From: a virus
DNA: 21,727 bases
Virus record (IMG/VR): IMGVR_UViG_3300044491_000269
Coordinates: 1 to 21,727 of that record
Direction: 5' to 3' (one strand)
Position numbers and translations under genes: made by a program. Below are positions 12,214-20,919 of this stretch, one piece after another (position 1 is the first letter of the stretch; each line of letters starts with the position of its first letter). The notes beneath the pieces are model-generated. The model did no database searches, was not told where the DNA came from, and saw only the letters and a program-made list of their open reading frames with translations.

Positions 12214-12605
12214 TTTACTCCTCCAACGTTTAATTTAGATTTGATGACTTCTAACTGACCTTTGTTGAGCAGTTTCAGGGCATCTCTCGCCTTGTCGGTG
12301 CTGTATCCGTAGAACTGTTTGACAAGTTCTAGATCATTATCTGTCTGGACTTTGTTCCAAGGCGCGAAGCGTTTGGATTTCCTGATACTATATAGGTAAT
12401 AATTATATTGTAGATCACCGTCCAGGTCATAATAGCGGTTCATCTCGTTGACGTGGAGGATACAATCAAGATGACCTGCTAGACACTTGTTGACAACGAA
12501 AGAAGGATACTTCTTCATCGCACGTTCGTCTTCGTGGATGTCTCCTTGCTTTAAGTTGATGCCGTTGAGATAGTCTTTGAGGGCATACTCATACTGTTTC
12601 TCCAT
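12210..12605 (-). CDS. 62: gp62-like clamp loader small subunit
   Basis: A 131-residue protein in the position of T4 gene 62, between the clamp loader large subunit and regA. In T4, gp62 (187 aa) joins four gp44 subunits to load the gp45 clamp. This protein is shorter. It keeps features I associate with cyanophage gp62: LKDYLNGINLKQGDI at the start, a central VNKCLAGHLDCILHVNEMNR, then FAPWNK and a C-terminal helix. It overlaps dam by 17 bases and regA by four. A GGAG lies about ten bases before ATG. Recognition rests on gene order and partial similarity. Confidence 0.85.
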   Translation of the reverse strand: MEKQYEYALKDYLNGINLKQGDIHEDERAMKKYPSFVVNKCLAGHLDCILHVNEMNRYYDLDGDLQYNYYLYSIRKSKRFAPWNKVQTDNDLELVKQFYGYSTDKARDALKLLNKGQLEVIKSKLNVGGVK

Positions 12606-13452
12606 AAAGCAAGGTCTCCAAAGGATTGGGTGGTTGTACGTTGTAGTTGCTAATGAGCAGTTCGTTCTTTCTGTTGTTCTCCCTATGCTTCATGCCATAG
12701 GTGAACGCAAAGTAACGTTGATTATAGGACTCAAACATCTGCTCGATGTCTTCATCTACATTATACGTCACCATCCACTTGTGATGAGACGCCTTACATG
12801 CCGCTGCAAAGTCTTCATGATTGAAATTCTTATGCAGTTCTGCCTGTGTACCATAAAGATAAGATCCAATCTTGTATGGTGGGTCAAGGAAAATAAATAC
12901 ACCTTCGTTATCACCACCAGGATCAATGTCTAGAAGGGGATCTGTGTAGTCAACATTAGTGATCTCCCAATGCTGAATGATATCTTGATACTTTTTTAGG
13001 TTTGTAGCACCACGAAGGGTGAAGTTTTGCTTAGATGCTGACTCAGAGAATGAAGAGTTCTCGGTCAACCCAGAGTAAGAACACTTATTAAGAACCCAAA
13101 ATAGCACAGCTTGGCGAAAAGGATCGGCCTCGTGTATCTCTTCCTTACTTCTCTTGAACAATTCCTTAGCAAGATCAACGGTGTGGTTCTCTTGTTTGAT
13201 TGCATAGCAGACATCAGACAATCTGTCACCATCTTCTTGTAGGTGTACCCAAAAGTTGTAGAGATAGAAGTATTTGTCATTGATCCAGACTGGAATTTCA
13301 GGGTGTAGTTGAGAAAAATACAGTGCCATAGAGGCACCACCACAAAAAGGTTCTCGATATTCCGTGATTCCAGAGGGGAACCAGTCATAGAGTTGTGCTG
13401 CTGCTCGTGATTTACCTCCTGGGTATCGCAGCGGGGTCTTCAATAGTTTCAT
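12589..13452 (-). CDS. dam: DNA adenine-N6 methyltransferase (Dam, D12 class)
   Basis: A 287-residue D12-class methyltransferase that moves a methyl group from S-adenosylmethionine to adenine N6; T4 Dam is 259 aa. The motifs are complete: PLRYPGGKS near residue 7 and FCGGAS around 36-41 for S-adenosylmethionine binding, CSYSGLTENS at 124-133, and the catalytic DPPY at 190-193. GATC is the likely target by family, but this is not shown here. The start overlaps the oxygenase stop as ATGA. It is inserted between genes 44 and 62, which are adjacent in T4. Confidence 0.93.
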   Translation of the reverse strand: MKLLKTPLRYPGGKSRAAAQLYDWFPSGITEYREPFCGGASMALYFSQLHPEIPVWINDKYFYLYNFWVHLQEDGDRLSDVCYAIKQENHTVDLAKELFKRSKEEIHEADPFRQAVLFWVLNKCSYSGLTENSSFSESASKQNFTLRGATNLKKYQDIIQHWEITNVDYTDPLLDIDPGGDNEGVFIFLDPPYKIGSYLYGTQAELHKNFNHEDFAAACKASHHKWMVTYNVDEDIEQMFESYNQRYFAFTYGMKHRENNRKNELLISNYNVQPPNPLETLLYGETV

Positions 13453-15021: not shown

Positions 15022-15549
15022 TTAGATCCAGTCGGGTTTACGTTCGGGTAGTCTAACATAGTTGTCTGCTACCCATGGTTTAGATGCAATGTACATCTTG
15101 TAAGCATCAAAGGTTGAGATGCTTGTATCAAGTTTATAGCAGTCGGGCATTGCCCTTACGAATGGTGTGCATTCTTTGCCACTGCGACCCTGTGGGTCTG
15201 CCGTAGGGAAGATGACAGATGCATGTTCCAGAGCAGTTTGGCAGTTATGAACCTTGCCATAGCGGGTGGTGTACTCTCCACACAGTGCAAGACCATGCTG
15301 AATCAACCAACGCCAGTTTGTCACAAACTCACTTGCCCATTTCGTACATGGGTGGTTACGAAAAGCACCCTTCTCAGTGGCATAGGGAGTACCGTCTGCC
15401 TTGGGAAGGGTGCCGAAACCATGACCCCACTTGTCGGATGCCACGATAGAGAGCATTTGACAGCACTCTAAGGGCATCTTGACGATGTGCTTGTCGGGAA
15501 GCACGATCGCAGACAAGTGTGGACTAGGGTCAGTGACAAAGATGTTCAT
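15022..15549 (-). CDS. Conserved phage protein, function unknown (MNIF...DKH.VKM family)
   Basis: A 175-residue protein. I recognise the pattern from other phages (MNIFVTD start, then DKHIVKMPLECCQMLS, NHPCTKWASE, then EYTTRYGKVH) but cannot name a function. Several conserved His, Lys, Cys and Trp residues suggest an enzyme or nucleic-acid-binding fold. The start overlaps the gp45 stop as TGATG. It replaces the T4 gene rpbA in the 45-to-44 interval. Confidence 0.75.
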   Translation of the reverse strand: MNIFVTDPSPHLSAIVLPDKHIVKMPLECCQMLSIVASDKWGHGFGTLPKADGTPYATEKGAFRNHPCTKWASEFVTNWRWLIQHGLALCGEYTTRYGKVHNCQTALEHASVIFPTADPQGRSGKECTPFVRAMPDCYKLDTSISTFDAYKMYIASKPWVADNYVRLPERKPDWI

Positions 15550-16575: not shown

Positions 16576-17172
16576 TTAACAGAAACGTTCAAGTTGTGAA
16601 ATGTAGAGGTCAGTCTTTTCATTGCCTGATGTATCAAGAGCAATAACAGAATCCCTGATGAATGGATTCTGAATATTTGACTGATCCCACCAGTGAATGA
16701 CCTTACGAATACCAGACTTAACTGGTTGAACTCTATGAAGGAGACCCGTTGGGTATATGACAGCATACCCCGCTGGCAATTTTACACTAACACAAAAGTC
16801 ACCGAAACGCAAATCAAGTTCTCCCCCATCATACTCATCAGGATTATTCAAGAAGAGTGTGGTTGAAACATCGAGTCGTAGACCATCAGAAGAAACTACC
16901 TCATCTGAGTGCCATCCATAACTCTGACCTGCTCGGTACTCTTTGTATGTGTACCCCGTACGGGCATTACTGAGGGTCAGACGTTGATGGTCACTGGCAT
17001 CGACTTCATGGTCAAGTTCCTCAGCAGCAAATCCACCAAAAGAAGAACCATAACCTAGAAGTTCATAACAATATTTGTCTGGGGTGTTTCTTTTGATAAG
17101 AGTTGCCCCGACAGCAGAGGCGAGGGTACGTTCTACCTCGCTCTCATTCAGGATCTTAGTTCGATACAGCAT
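16576..17172 (-). CDS. 2OG-Fe(II) oxygenase, PKHD-type hydroxylase
   Basis: A 198-residue dioxygenase of the PKHD (PiuC-like) type. The Fe ligands are His88 and Asp90 in YGWHSDEV and His146 in GLLHRVQPV. Arg156 in SGIRKVIHWW is the expected 2-oxoglutarate contact. The core strand LDVSTTLFLNN and YDGGELDL are typical. Substrate unknown. The start overlaps the stop of the AAA+ ATPase gene as TGATG. It differs clearly from the two other oxygenases in the window, so it is not a recent duplicate. Confidence 0.87.
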   Translation of the reverse strand: MLYRTKILNESEVERTLASAVGATLIKRNTPDKYCYELLGYGSSFGGFAAEELDHEVDASDHQRLTLSNARTGYTYKEYRAGQSYGWHSDEVVSSDGLRLDVSTTLFLNNPDEYDGGELDLRFGDFCVSVKLPAGYAVIYPTGLLHRVQPVKSGIRKVIHWWDQSNIQNPFIRDSVIALDTSGNEKTDLYISQLERFC

Positions 17173-18269
17173 CAGTCTTGGAGAAGAGGGGATTCAGAAA
17201 GGTCAATCTTAGCATCAATCTTGCTGTACAGTTCGAGGAAGGACTCTTTGGTCTCGTCATCGAAACGGTTGAGGCAGAGTTTGATTGCTTTCAGACGGTC
17301 ACCAAAGATAGAGAATGCACGAATGACGTGAACCAGACGACGAGTGGAGATAACCTCATCAATACCACCCTCAGCAAAGGTCTTACGGATGATCTCTGCC
17401 CAGGTAGTCAGGTTCTCAATATACTCATCATCGCAACAGTTGAGTTCAGAGCAGTAGTTGTTGAGCATCTTCTTCTCAACGGAAGGGGTGGGATACTCCT
17501 GCTCGAAGGTAAGGGGGAAACGCTCCAAGAATGCTTCGTTGAGGACGTTGGTGCCAATGAAGCGACCGTCGTCGCTACCCTTACCCTTAGTGTTAGCGGT
17601 AGCGACCACAGTGAAACCTTTGGCAGGAGTCACAGTGCGACCAACTTTCTTCAAGAAGACACCCTTACCTTCCAGAATAGATTGCAGACAGAGGATCTTG
17701 TTAGAGGCAAGGTCAATCTCGTCAAGCAGAAGGACAGCACCACGTTCCAGTGCTTCGATGACGGGACCGTTGTGCCACACAGTATTACCATCGACGAGAC
17801 GGAAACCACCAATCAGGTCATCCTCGTCAGTCTCAACGGTAATGTTGACACGGATCAGGTCGCGACCCAGTTGAGCACATGCTTGCTCAACAGAGAAGGT
17901 CTTACCGTTACCAGACAGACCAGTAACGAACACAGGATAGAACACCTCAGAACGAATGATCTTTTTCAGATCATTGAAGTTCCCGAACGGGACATAATTG
18001 GAGTCTTTCTGAGGAATCAAGTTAGTATTTTCCCGATCGGTAACAGGAGTGGCAGCAGGTGCTTCATACGCACGTTGGATTTCCAGTGCAGTCAGGTTCC
18101 ACTTGCCACGACCAGACTTGTAAGAATCAAGACGCTTGGCAATGGTGGGGTAAGAAACGTTGAAGTGGTCAGCAGCACGAAGCAAGTGGTTGGTCTTGAC
18201 ATCTTCGCCAAAGTTACGAGAGAGGAAGTCAATGATATCGGTGGTGGTCACGTCAGCAGTGCGAGGCAT
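17172..18269 (-). CDS. cobS: MoxR/CobS-type AAA+ ATPase
   Basis: A 365-residue AAA+ ATPase of the type annotated as CobS in cyanophages. Residues 1-70 form a small N-terminal domain that may be helix-turn-helix-like (HFNVSYPTIAKRL). Walker A GLSGNGKT is at 117-124, Walker B AVLLLDEID at 178-186, sensor 1 ATAN at 223-226, and the arginine finger in FLERF at about 250. These fit the MoxR/CobS/NorQ branch, whose members act with a VWA-domain partner to remodel proteins or insert metal. The adjacent upstream gene is exactly such a VWA protein. A role in cobalamin synthesis is not supported by anything else here. It has its own leader with a TATACTAT box. Confidence 0.9.
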   Translation of the reverse strand: MPRTADVTTTDIIDFLSRNFGEDVKTNHLLRAADHFNVSYPTIAKRLDSYKSGRGKWNLTALEIQRAYEAPAATPVTDRENTNLIPQKDSNYVPFGNFNDLKKIIRSEVFYPVFVTGLSGNGKTFSVEQACAQLGRDLIRVNITVETDEDDLIGGFRLVDGNTVWHNGPVIEALERGAVLLLDEIDLASNKILCLQSILEGKGVFLKKVGRTVTPAKGFTVVATANTKGKGSDDGRFIGTNVLNEAFLERFPLTFEQEYPTPSVEKKMLNNYCSELNCCDDEYIENLTTWAEIIRKTFAEGGIDEVISTRRLVHVIRAFSIFGDRLKAIKLCLNRFDDETKESFLELYSKIDAKIDLSESPLLQD

Positions 18270-18295
18270 GATGTCGTCTGTTGTTTGGTATGTGA

Positions 18296-18303
18296 ATAGT
18301 ATA
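18296..18303 (-). promoter_or_regulatory. TATACTAT promoter-like box before the AAA+ ATPase gene
   Basis: The minus strand reads TATACTAT, three bases, CATAC, then CAGACG closer to the start codon. The same arrangement precedes the VWA protein gene. TATACT fits a sigma-70 -10 element, but no convincing -35 is seen because a G/C-rich hairpin occupies that place. Confidence 0.5.
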
Positions 18304-18310
18304 GGGGAGA

Positions 18311-18331
18311 AGGGGGGTAACAGACCCCCCT
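18311..18331 (-). terminator. Hairpin after the VWA/peptidase gene
   Basis: A perfect 8-bp stem, AGGGGGGT and ACCCCCCT with a 5-base loop, begins nine bases past the stop codon. The minus-strand sequence after it is TCTCCCC, so the U-tract is poor. It probably separates the two transcripts or protects an RNA 3' end. Confidence 0.55.
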
Positions 18332-18339
18332 AGGGGACA

Positions 18340-20517
18340 CTACGCGATCCGTCCAGCAAAGGAAGAGAGCATCTTGCGATTGACCGACTTGGACTTCAAG
18401 GTCTTCTTGAAGGCATTACGGATCTGACTCTTGGTAGCATCTTCATTAACGTCCATCTCTACTTCGGAAGAGTAAGAATTCGATTGAATTACATACAGTT
18501 CGTTGTAAGGAGAGTTGTTGACAACAACAGATTTGTCTCGTTTGAAGACTTTCGTATATTTATCAACAGTATGCCACAGACCGAAAGAACGAAGGTAGTG
18601 ACTAAGACCACGAGTATTGCAGATACGGAACCCAAGGACACTACTGTTGGGATGGGAGTCCCGAATGATACGAATCAGAGCATTTGTCATACTTTGGTTA
18701 GCATCAGTGATATCAGAGTAATAACGTCCCTTATGTCGAACCACAGTGTTATAACCAACGCTGCTCGGATAAGGTGCATCAAAGTATTGTGTCAGTTTAT
18801 GATCACGAGCATAACCGATGCACTGAGACTCACCATCAGTCAGGATAATCAGGTGGGATTTCTCAACACCATTACGAGTCTGCCACTCAGGAAGATACTG
18901 ATGCATAGCAACCAGTGCTTCATTAAGAGGAGTGCCACCCAGACCCATGAAGTAAGGAGGAGCAGGACGGAACTTGTAGCAAGTGTTACGCTGATGCCAA
19001 TAGTTTGCGACACGATACATGTTGCGACACTGACGTTTGAAGTCCTTCTGATTACCTTCACTGGTCAGAAGATTAACCAGTTTGAATCGATTGTCGATCC
19101 ACAACTGACCGACTTCATGACTAGCAACATCGGGGAGATCATTAACACTCTCATGAGTCTCGCACCCCAGGAAGGGATTGAGTGCTGCATCGGACACAAA
19201 GGAGTACACATCAAAAGGAATACCAACCTTCTTGCAGAACTGAACAAGGTTGATGACCTGACAAACAGTCTCGAAGATCTCCTGTGACATAGAACCAGAC
19301 CAGTCAAGTAAGAACACAAGACCATGATTCTTGCCATCAGTGGTACGAGTCACTTTTTTGAAGATGTCGTCACTGAACTTGTAATTGTGCAGTTTGGTGG
19401 TATCCAGAACACCAGTGCGAGAGGTAGAAGAACGTGCATAGGCAGATGCAGACTTCTTGCACTCAAACTCCTTGACCAGATAGTTCACATCTTTGGCAGT
19501 CTTGTTGCAGAACTCGTTGAACTCAGAGTCAACACCAGCAAAGACATCAACACCTTCGGAAGTTTCAGTTGCATAATACTGATCCCAGTATTCTTCTGCT
19601 TTGTCCCAAAGTTGCTTGTTGTTGACAATGATTTTGTCAGAGTAAATCTTGGGGAACTGAACATAAGTGGGAGACTGAGCATGACGATCGATCAGACTCT
19701 CAGCAGCACGGTCAAAGTTACGTTGAGTGGTGACGTTATCGATATCGGGATCAGCATACTCATAGGAAGGAGTATCAAGATCGGCAGGGTCGAGATTATC
19801 ATCGCCCTGATTATCACCCTTATCACTCTCCTCAGTAAACCAGGGGCGAGGAGTTTCACCCTGACCCTGTTGTTCGTCACTTTGCTCAAAAGAATTGGTG
19901 CTTTCCTCAGTAGAAGAAGAACCATTGCCAGGAGCACCTTGGGGTTGAGCAGGAGTGCTTTGCTTTTTCTCTTCGCGTTGCTGCTTGGTAAACTCGTAAA
20001 TAGCGTCAGCAGCAGCAATTGCCTCAGCAAACGTCTCAGCAGCGCCCACAGCGTCTCTAAGGGGGGTCTCAGAGTCTTCAAAAGGCATCATTGAATATGC
20101 ACCGATCTTATAGTGCAGGTTGACACGATCGATCAAAGGAAGCAGTTCGAGTTTCTCGTCCTTAATGCAGAAGAAATCCTGAGCATTGAGTTCCTGATAA
20201 CCACCATAGAAGTCCTTGGTCAGACCAGGGAACTTACGCTTCATCAGTTTTTCGATGCGAGCATCCTCAGTCACGTTGACATAGGACTTGGGGCAAGGAA
20301 GATCATCAAGACCTTCGTTGGGGGTGTAGAGGGCATGACCGACCTCGTGACCGACCAGCATGGTGTACACAGTATCGCTTGCTTTCTTCCACAGGGGCAG
20401 GGTCAGCACACGCTTCTCAACATCAAAGGAAGCAGTGGGGACTTGTTTGTGCTCTACCAGAAGGTTTTCGGTAGCAAGCAGGCGGGCGAGATTGCCCTTG
20501 ATCTCTTGGGTGTTCAT
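18340..20517 (-). CDS. Large VWA-domain protein with HExxH metallopeptidase-like N-terminus
   Basis: A 725-residue protein. Residues 1-130 hold a zincin-like site: HEVGH at 57-61 with Glu84 or Glu89 of the EDARIE stretch as a possible third ligand. Residues 180-250 are an acidic, Gln/Ser-rich linker. A VWA domain spans about 395-620 with a complete MIDAS: DWSGS at 405-409, Thr529 in GGTPLNEAL, and Asp561 in LIILTDGES. The layout resembles VWA-containing metallopeptidase-like proteins and CobT-type partners of MoxR ATPases; cyanophage versions are often just called peptidase. The next gene is such an ATPase, so the two likely form a chaperone or protease machine. It is the second largest protein in the window. 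The catalytic activity is inferred. Confidence 0.85.
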   Translation of the reverse strand: MNTQEIKGNLARLLATENLLVEHKQVPTASFDVEKRVLTLPLWKKASDTVYTMLVGHEVGHALYTPNEGLDDLPCPKSYVNVTEDARIEKLMKRKFPGLTKDFYGGYQELNAQDFFCIKDEKLELLPLIDRVNLHYKIGAYSMMPFEDSETPLRDAVGAAETFAEAIAAADAIYEFTKQQREEKKQSTPAQPQGAPGNGSSSTEESTNSFEQSDEQQGQGETPRPWFTEESDKGDNQGDDNLDPADLDTPSYEYADPDIDNVTTQRNFDRAAESLIDRHAQSPTYVQFPKIYSDKIIVNNKQLWDKAEEYWDQYYATETSEGVDVFAGVDSEFNEFCNKTAKDVNYLVKEFECKKSASAYARSSTSRTGVLDTTKLHNYKFSDDIFKKVTRTTDGKNHGLVFLLDWSGSMSQEIFETVCQVINLVQFCKKVGIPFDVYSFVSDAALNPFLGCETHESVNDLPDVASHEVGQLWIDNRFKLVNLLTSEGNQKDFKRQCRNMYRVANYWHQRNTCYKFRPAPPYFMGLGGTPLNEALVAMHQYLPEWQTRNGVEKSHLIILTDGESQCIGYARDHKLTQYFDAPYPSSVGYNTVVRHKGRYYSDITDANQSMTNALIRIIRDSHPNSSVLGFRICNTRGLSHYLRSFGLWHTVDKYTKVFKRDKSVVVNNSPYNELYVIQSNSYSSEVEMDVNEDATKSQIRNAFKKTLKSKSVNRKMLSSFAGRIA

Positions 20518-20538: not shown

Positions 20539-20546
20539 ATAGTATA
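20539..20546 (-). promoter_or_regulatory. TATACTAT promoter-like box before the VWA/peptidase gene
   Basis: The minus strand has TATACTAT, three bases, CATAC, and AGACG, matching the leader of the AAA+ gene. It sits 22 bases before the start codon, directly after a terminator hairpin, as expected for a new transcript. No clear -35. Confidence 0.5.
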
Positions 20547-20576
20547 AGACCCCCCAGGAGGAATCCTAGGGGGTCT
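20547..20576 (-). terminator. Terminator hairpin after speD
   Basis: AGACCCCC pairs with GGGGGTCT, and an inner AGGA/TCCT pairing closes a 4-base loop: 12 pairs with one mismatch. It begins eight bases past the speD stop on the minus strand. The sequence after it, TATACTAT, is only moderately T-rich and also serves as the next promoter-like box. Confidence 0.65.
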
Positions 20577-20583
20577 GTGCCAG

Positions 20584-20919
20584 TCATCCGACTGGTCGTT
20601 TAATGGTCTGGTAGCACCATCTTTTACTTAGTAATGCCTTTCTCATAAATGAAAATGCTTCATGAGGGTCTGTGTGATCACCACAGGTAAAGGCATCGCA
20701 CACTGCTTCTCCATTTTCTGGCCAAGTGTGAATACTGATATGACTCTCCGCTAACATGGCGATAGCGGTAACACCCTGGGGATCAAACTTATGAGATTGG
20801 ATACCCAACAAGGTGCTGTTTGCACATTGTGCTGCTGTAACCAGCATGTTGCGAATGTAAGACTCATCATCTAGGAGAGCGGAGTCACATTGGCGAAGAG
20901 TAAAAACTATATGTTTCAT
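20584..20919 (-). CDS. speD: S-adenosylmethionine decarboxylase proenzyme
   Basis: A 111-residue bacterial-type AdoMetDC, which cleaves itself to form a pyruvoyl group and makes decarboxylated S-adenosylmethionine for spermidine synthesis. The cleavage motif AESHISIHTWPE puts the pyruvoyl precursor at Ser59. His64 and Cys79 (in FTCGDHTDP) occupy the spacing known for the processing and catalytic residues of this class. Length is near that of the short bacterial form. speD is a known cyanophage auxiliary metabolic gene. The start overlaps the gp46 stop as ATGA, so translation is tied to a recombination gene. No spermidine synthase is present in the window. Confidence 0.95.
   Translation of the reverse strand: MKHIVFTLRQCDSALLDDESYIRNMLVTAAQCANSTLLGIQSHKFDPQGVTAIAMLAESHISIHTWPENGEAVCDAFTCGDHTDPHEAFSFMRKALLSKRWCYQTIKRPVG

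Follow-up and report, generated by a model that had tools for sequence, protein, structure and literature searches.

The cyanophage genome fragment IMGVR_UViG_3300044491_000269 (positions 1 to 21,727, the whole stretch analyzed and here called the window) carries two neighboring genes that encode a MoxR/CobS-type AAA+ ATPase and a protein in which an N-terminal zincin-like domain is joined through a linker to a von Willebrand factor A (VWA) domain. The pair probably constitutes an ATP-driven metalloprotease or remodeller of replication-stage protein complexes. The 21.7-kb window is 98.7% identical to Synechococcus phage S-WAM1 across its full length, and the virus belongs to the family Kyanoviridae. 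Both open reading frames are located where an earlier reading of the letters alone (the sequence-only reading) had placed them, and contain all the motifs that it had named (Table 1). That reading recognized a MoxR-type ATPase with a VWA partner rather than a cobaltochelatase. Our results agree, as the proteins miss the curated cut-offs for CobS and CobT and the searches of these phages detected no CobN.

Architecture of the ATPase and its zincin-VWA partner

The ATPase has the features of MoxR-type AAA+ proteins: an AAA_5 domain, Walker A and Walker B motifs, a sensor 1 residue (N226), and an arginine-finger candidate (R250). It also contains a sensor-2 region (STRRL, residues 308–312). In 12 divergent phage homologs, all of these motifs show little or no variation. 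By sequence, the ATPase matches the AAA modules of NorQ, CbbQ, and Midasin; the Midasin match (E 5e-52) adds up five AAA modules and so cannot be set against the CobS score, which comes from a single domain. The homolog from phage S-CREM1 was assigned to the CGN subfamily (PMC9964418). The CobS-like protein would assemble into a MoxR-type ring.

The partner protein begins with a gluzincin-like domain, continues with a disordered acidic linker and a helical stretch, and has a VWA domain that contains a metal-ion-dependent adhesion site (MIDAS). Residues T529 and D561 complete the DxSxS...T...D pattern of the site, and a VWA protein with a complete MIDAS is thus encoded next to the ATPase, as in MoxR-VWA pairs. 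The best structural matches of the VWA domain, tied at Z 16.3, are the MIDAS domain of human MDN1 and the NorD VWA domain of NorQ-NorD complexes. Both MDN1 and NorD are AAA+ partners. By analogy to PDB entries 9qh6 and 21vu, the ATPase and the VWA protein may form a physical complex. A PDB sequence search with the 725-residue protein returned nothing useful.

A Foldseek search with the whole model shows the VWA part only, and the N-terminal domain was therefore folded alone. Its model contains three strands, a helix bearing HExxH (residues 48–64), and a subsequent helix (residues 77–95) bearing E84. The structural matches are led by zinc-peptidase folds, with ArdC at Z 6.7 and selecase and jannalysin at Z 6.1–6.3. 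The leading set (Z 5.5–6.7) also includes abylysin, BepA, BlaR1, and IrrE, and Wss1 matches at Z 4.5. CobT structures were not among the matches of this fold search, where their absence is uninformative. HExxH followed by a glutamate on the next helix is the gluzincin pattern, and the NxxEDxR motif would supply the third zinc ligand, for which E84 is the candidate.

The HExxH motif is not a chance occurrence, because it is expected only 0.027 times in a protein of such composition and is invariant over 65 divergent homologs. The invariant residues are H57, E58, H61, N81, E84, D85, R87, D405, S407, S409, T529, and D561. The first homolog collections were gathered partly through the HExxH and MIDAS motifs. 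To avoid this ascertainment bias, a second collection was selected by the ATPase alone. HExxH...NxxEDxR is kept in all 41 of its partner proteins with a complete N-terminus. The conservation of HExxH, whose absence from homologs would have refuted the sequence-only reading, is thereby borne out.

We propose that the VWA domain would recognize or tether the target through the MIDAS metal site, as in Midasin and NorQ-NorD, while the flexible acidic linker would allow the N-terminal zincin to reach a target exposed by the motor.

Linkage, genomic context, and the probable target

The genes of the pair are adjacent or nearly so across loci. The partner was found in 58 of 63 ATPase-selected loci, and the contigs of the other 5 stop at most 1.5 kb upstream. 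At a coverage of at least 80%, 457 records of the phage collection contain the peptidase and 459 contain the ATPase, and the names are split in the same way for both genes (365 Synechococcus, 61 Cyanophage, and 24 Prochlorococcus). The pair is carried by nearly all marine T4-like cyanophages. Phages S-B68 and S-N03 are T4-like cyanophages reported to lack cobS (PMC10665884). Neither the peptidase nor the ATPase was found in these two phages or in S-CBWM1, and both are present in S-CRM01. The genes are thus found together or are jointly absent, which upholds the co-occurrence anticipated by the sequence-only reading.

The pair is also present in HTVC008M and Mosig, two pelagiphages propagated on Pelagibacter HTCC1062, and has relatives in phages infecting E. 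coli, in mobile elements, and in plasmids. The phage homologs give no direct match to plasmid records; the plasmid relatives were found through the protein of an Ochrobactrum phage. HExxH is kept in SSU5, RHEph10, ICP2, CRP-810, HTVC008M, and a Klebsiella phage, of which ICP2 has no recognizable NxxED. A related ATPase is encoded by Staphylococcus phage SA5, where the large open reading frame upstream of it (L033 945-2993) was rejected as a partner because it contains neither HExxH nor a D.SGS motif. The locus of the pair has received host-type metabolic genes both in the window, where speD (20584-20919) lies just before the pair, and in P-SSM4, where pcyA (L028 6220-6909) separates the two genes. 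In pelagiphages, a gene for ribosomal protein S21 is positioned shortly after the CobS-like gene (L026 8673-8882; L273 7351-7554).

The gene order in S-WAM1 is gp55, gp47, gp46, speD, 'peptidase', 'CobS', 2OG-Fe(II) oxygenase, sliding clamp gp45, gp44, and regA, beyond which are the polymerase, recombinase, and primase-helicase. The pair therefore sits within the T4-type replication and recombination block, outside the structural block. The order gp46-[pair]-gp45-gp44 is shared by cyanophages, pelagiphage HTVC008M, and the Ochrobactrum phage. Non-T4-like lineages are separate from this inherited synteny. The pair is located beside DNA polymerase III alpha, ligase, or both in Klebsiella, Salmonella, Rhizobium, Pseudomonas, and Stenotrophomonas phages. 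In ICP2, primase and helicase genes lie downstream of it, and its companions in mobile elements and plasmids are Toprim primase, YqaJ nuclease, RecT, and DUF3150. Across about seven phage lineages and the mobile elements, the pair is mostly found beside replication or recombination genes. Modules of AAA, DUF3150, and HExxH-VWA genes lie beside primase, YqaJ nuclease, or RecT in loci L030, L031, and L148-L164; a literature search on DUF3150 together with cobS found nothing.

Each gene of the pair is preceded by a hairpin and the -10-like octamer TATACTAT, which has only these two sites on the minus strand of the window. The hairpin upstream of the peptidase possibly marks the end of the speD transcript, and it was not listed by a terminator scan that requires a T-run. 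TATA-type elements occur upstream of the peptidase in 40% of 110 and upstream of the ATPase in 56% of 107 distinct homologous regions, compared with 9.4% of 637 control open reading frames; the windows upstream of the ATPase were 30 nt longer than the others. The p values for this enrichment (4e-14 for the peptidase and 3e-26 for the ATPase) are overstated, given these longer windows and the lack of independence among related phages. Scans for sigma-70 promoters and T-run terminators gave no more matches than chance. The hairpins with TATACTAT, the NxxEDxR motif, and the acidic linker (residues 188–258) are additions to the sequence-only reading.

Because of the early/middle-type promoter-like elements and the replication and recombination neighbors, the target would most likely be a complex of the DNA replication or recombination phase, involving a phage or host protein on DNA, and neither a corrin nor a finished virion. 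We consider this the most probable class of target, at slightly under an even chance. Several observations weigh against a protease of replication-stage complexes. The Z scores of the N-terminal domain, at most 6.7 and thus under 8, are modest and below the unambiguous level, though the signal is consistent. The T4-like neighborhood is inherited synteny, and those loci are not independent votes. In Roseobacter phage CRP-810, the pair is near a DNA-repair (pyrimidine-dimer) glycosylase and an integrase, not a polymerase. Two related phage lineages, phiK7B1 and ANB28, have lost HExxH yet keep the pair, and proteolysis therefore appears to be dispensable in some relatives. The HExxH-less pair proteins (L035 2442-4526 and L282 3486-5471) are a natural parallel to CobT.

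The early/middle-type elements are also compatible with host takeover or counter-defense, in which the protease would remove a host protein early in infection. The structural likeness of the N-terminal domain to the antirestriction protein ArdC and the presence of the pair in unrelated phages and conjugative elements are in favor of such a role. However, the ATPases of phages from cyanobacteria, SAR11, and Stenotrophomonas are still about 48-60% identical to one another. A host-specific target would fit this conservation less well than a universal target or a conserved one on the phage side, and we regard host takeover as possible but doubtful. It is somewhat unlikely that the pair is purely a chaperone, with a structural or adaptor-like zinc site in the N-terminal domain and nothing cleaved. 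CobT and the proteins of phiK7B1 and ANB28 do retain the scaffold without HExxH, but the catalytic glutamate E58 is also invariant in the divergent homologs, and a structural site would not need it.

A function in virion assembly was proposed by Iyer et al. 2021 for group 2.2 jumbo phages, with Acidianus two-tailed virus as a precedent (PMC7824862): the ATPase and VWA parts would act as an assembly chaperone, and the zincin would process structural proteins. Such a factor need not remain in the virion. Nevertheless, the pair is encoded in the replication block and not the structural block, S-B68 and S-N03 do without it, and it is also found in mobile elements and plasmids. The T4-type late motif precedes the peptidase in 0 of 110 regions and the ATPase in 3 of 107, which is weak evidence, as the motif was detected before only 3 of 12 control genes, mostly structural, in S-WAM1. 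Neither protein is named among the functionally assigned virion proteins of S-SZBM1 and S-SCSM1 (PMC9146016, PMC9602691), the kind of proteome in which the sequence-only reading had suggested looking. Virion assembly is therefore an unlikely role, and the suggestion of virion maturation in that reading gains little support.

Table 1. Features of the ATPase and zincin-VWA genes in the window.
Feature	Positions	Strand	Details
MoxR/CobS-type AAA+ ATPase, 365 aa, phrog_249, 'CobS' in S-WAM1	17172..18269	-	AAA_5 E 2.3e-17; phrog_249 E 2.9e-140
Walker A GLSGNGKT, residues 117-124	17898..17921	-	conserved
Walker B LLLDEID, residues 180-186	17712..17732	-	conserved
Zincin-linker-VWA protein, 725 aa, phrog_459 'peptidase'	18340..20517	-	phrog_459 E 2.5e-253; AlphaFold mean pLDDT (predicted local distance difference test) 83
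N-terminal gluzincin-like domain, residues 1-187	19957..20517	-	modelled alone, pLDDT 90.7; structural matches
HEVGH, predicted zinc-binding/catalytic motif, residues 57-61	20335..20349	-	conserved
NVTEDARIE, residues 81-89; E84 candidate third zinc ligand	20251..20277	-	N81, E84, D85, R87 invariant
Disordered acidic linker, residues 188-258	19744..19956	-	pLDDT <50; 18 D/E, 2 K/R
VWA domain with MIDAS, about residues 390-695	18433..19350	-	structural matches to MDN1 MIDAS, NorD VWA
MIDAS motif DWSGSM, residues 405-410	19288..19305	-	conserved
TATACTAT, -10-like element, 29 nt before peptidase start	20539..20546	-	sequence scan
Strong hairpin just upstream of peptidase TATACTAT	20547..20576	-	-25.6 kcal/mol, z -4.0
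TATACTAT, -10-like element, 34 nt before ATPase start	18296..18303	-	sequence scan
GC-rich hairpin between the pair genes	18311..18331	-	46-nt stretch -16.4 kcal/mol, z -1.96

Two other genes of the window differ from their S-WAM1 labels. The gene at 12589-13452, labelled cytosine-specific methyltransferase, matches the Pfam D12 class N6-adenine methyltransferase (E 2.4e-27). The gene at 15022-15549, between the clamp and clamp loader genes and labelled hypothetical, matches pyrimidine dimer DNA glycosylase (E 2.3e-15).

Relation to CobS, CobT, and cobaltochelatase

The ATPase scores 68.2 bits against the CobS equivalog TIGR01650, below its curated cut-off of 558.55, and the 725-residue protein has no match at E<=10 to the CobT model TIGR01651 (cut-off 759.05 bits). 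A tree built from the AAA cores groups the phage ATPases in a single clade with support 1.0. All 29 CobS proteins group together on a long separate stem, the support of which is poorly resolved after re-rooting. The pair resembles CobS-CobT (TIGR01650, TIGR01651; PDB 9uka series, 21vu) in combining an AAA_5 ATPase with a protein built of an N-terminal domain, an acidic linker, and a VWA domain. In contrast, CobT lacks HExxH, and the phage pair misses the family cut-offs, branches as a separate clade, and has no CobN.

The HExxH domain is connected to CobT by sequence comparison through cellular and plasmid relatives, in which genes for a CobS-like ATPase and an HExxH-VWA protein occur together, usually separated by a DUF3150 gene. 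The CobT model matches the N-terminal domains of four such HExxH-VWA proteins (E 8e-9 to 5e-7). Profile comparison with hhalign links the phage domain to the mobile-element domain (99.4%, E 8.5e-22) and the mobile-element domain to that of CobT (97.5%, E 5.4e-12). The direct comparison of phage and CobT domains was not significant (probability 3.7%). The profiles thus indicate that the HExxH domain is homologous to the CobT N-terminal domain by way of the mobile-element relatives. Alignment of CobT sequences shows ALALR or a similar string in place of HExxH, and an E.EQxR-like string in place of NxxEDxR. The simplest reading is that the CobT N-terminal domain is a decayed zincin and that CobT looks like a decayed cousin of the phage protein. 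The sequence-only reading had described HExxH as an added site; however, because the CobT domain is homologous and looks degenerate, loss of the motif in CobT is more likely than its gain in the phage proteins. CobT would be a relative in which the protease site has disappeared and the scaffold of ATPase and VWA partner persists. This interpretation reverses a published remark that phage cobT was 'mistakenly annotated as a peptidase' (PMC8651126). A Planctomycetota contig (L160 5893-7611; also L168) encodes a zincin-VWA protein with intact HECAH...NALEDARVE. In the genome of L160, VWA stretches match CobT (positions 327-528, E 2e-22) and the ATPase branches apart. The protein is a possible intermediate between zincin-VWA proteins and CobT.

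Cobaltochelatase needs a CobN subunit. No match to PF02514, the CobN/ChlH family, occurs in 8 complete phage records or in 4 large viral contigs. A tblastn search with a Prochlorococcus PF02514 (CobN/ChlH-family) protein matched 2 of 50,697 phage records, neither of them a cyanophage; the search for cobN in cyanophage genomes that the sequence-only reading had proposed thus gave none. Pseudomonas phage Y13 (H142, OQ572414.1) encodes a near full-length CobN-like protein covering 95% of the query; the record is unannotated and may include host DNA. Among 60 genomes of the SAR11 family, which was recognized from two genomes matched by a 16S probe sequence, none has a PF02514 match. Cyanobacterial hosts have PF02514 proteins, an E. 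coli control genome does not, and neither do 9 of 10 non-phage genomes that bear the pair. Because CobN is absent from the phages tested, from the 60 SAR11-family genomes, and from most pair-bearing non-phage genomes, the vitamin B12 reading fails as a general explanation, and a cobaltochelatase function is contradicted, although the reading keeps a small probability in cyanobacteria, whose genomes do encode CobN/ChlH-family proteins.

The usual auxiliary-metabolic-gene reading, that phage CobST hijacks host CobN and raises B12 for ribonucleotide reduction (Liu et al. 2021), is a published proposal (PMC8651126) backed by real CobS homology, by CobT homology through intermediates, and by the PF02514 proteins of cyanobacteria, but it is highly improbable given the missed cut-offs, the ATPase position outside the CobS cluster, and the occurrence of the pair in two pelagiphages and in relatives that infect E. 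coli.

CobT above the curated cut-off occurs without a PF02514 match in 15 of 33 alphaproteobacterial genomes (genome set G016, G020-G076; loci L242-L271), which are assemblies of unstated completeness; a Caulobacter control behaves likewise. These counts suggest that bacterial CobS-CobT may have a CobN-independent role beyond cobalt insertion.

Comparison with known systems and implications

The pair shares the VWA/MIDAS fold and the ATPase sequence matches described above with NorQ-NorD and Midasin (MDN1/Rea1). Unlike the pair, Midasin is one giant chain, and we know of no zincin domain in NorQ-NorD or Midasin. The minigluzincins and selecase, ArdC, IrrE, and Wss1 resemble the N-terminal domain in fold and HExxH, with Z of only 4-7, and to our knowledge none of them is fused to a VWA domain or paired with an AAA+ gene. 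The DUF3150-linked operons of mobile elements and plasmids likewise combine an AAA gene with an HExxH-VWA gene. However, at least one gene, mostly DUF3150, usually separates the two, and the VWA protein is shorter, mostly about 530-620 aa.

The pairing of a MoxR ATPase with a metallopeptidase-vWA protein was already described in group 2.2 jumbo phages (Iyer et al. 2021, PMC7824862), where a MoxR AAA+ gene is beside that for a vWA protein with an N-terminal metallopeptidase domain. Cyanophages belong to group 2.1, the two pairs were compared by their published description, and the context found here is one of replication, whereas virion assembly was proposed there. Within the literature searched, the new elements are the test of the cyanophage core pair as the form with an intact site, the proposed origin of the CobT N-terminal domain as a degenerate zincin, the CobN-free hosts, and the shared DNA-replication context.

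It is also conceivable, though we think it unlikely, that the pair belongs to a widespread mobile-element system in which an AAA+ motor and a VWA-tethered zincin extract and cut proteins on replicating or recombining DNA, as a phage counterpart of Cdc48 with Wss1/Spartan. CobS-CobT would then be its domesticated, protease-dead descendant, and cobS, among the most familiar 'auxiliary metabolic genes' of cyanophages, would not be metabolic. The likeness to SprT/Wss1-type DNA-protein crosslink proteases consists of fold resemblance and gene context.

The cobS gene is a core gene of T4-like cyanophages (PMC3037559), and many marine virus surveys have counted it as viral B12 metabolism. It should not serve as such evidence. 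Should the pair prove to be an ATP-dependent metalloprotease of DNA-phase complexes, inferences on viral B12 metabolism would need revision, the origin of CobT would gain an explanation, and point changes at H57 or E58 and at the Walker B glutamate would offer a test of a core cyanophage function.

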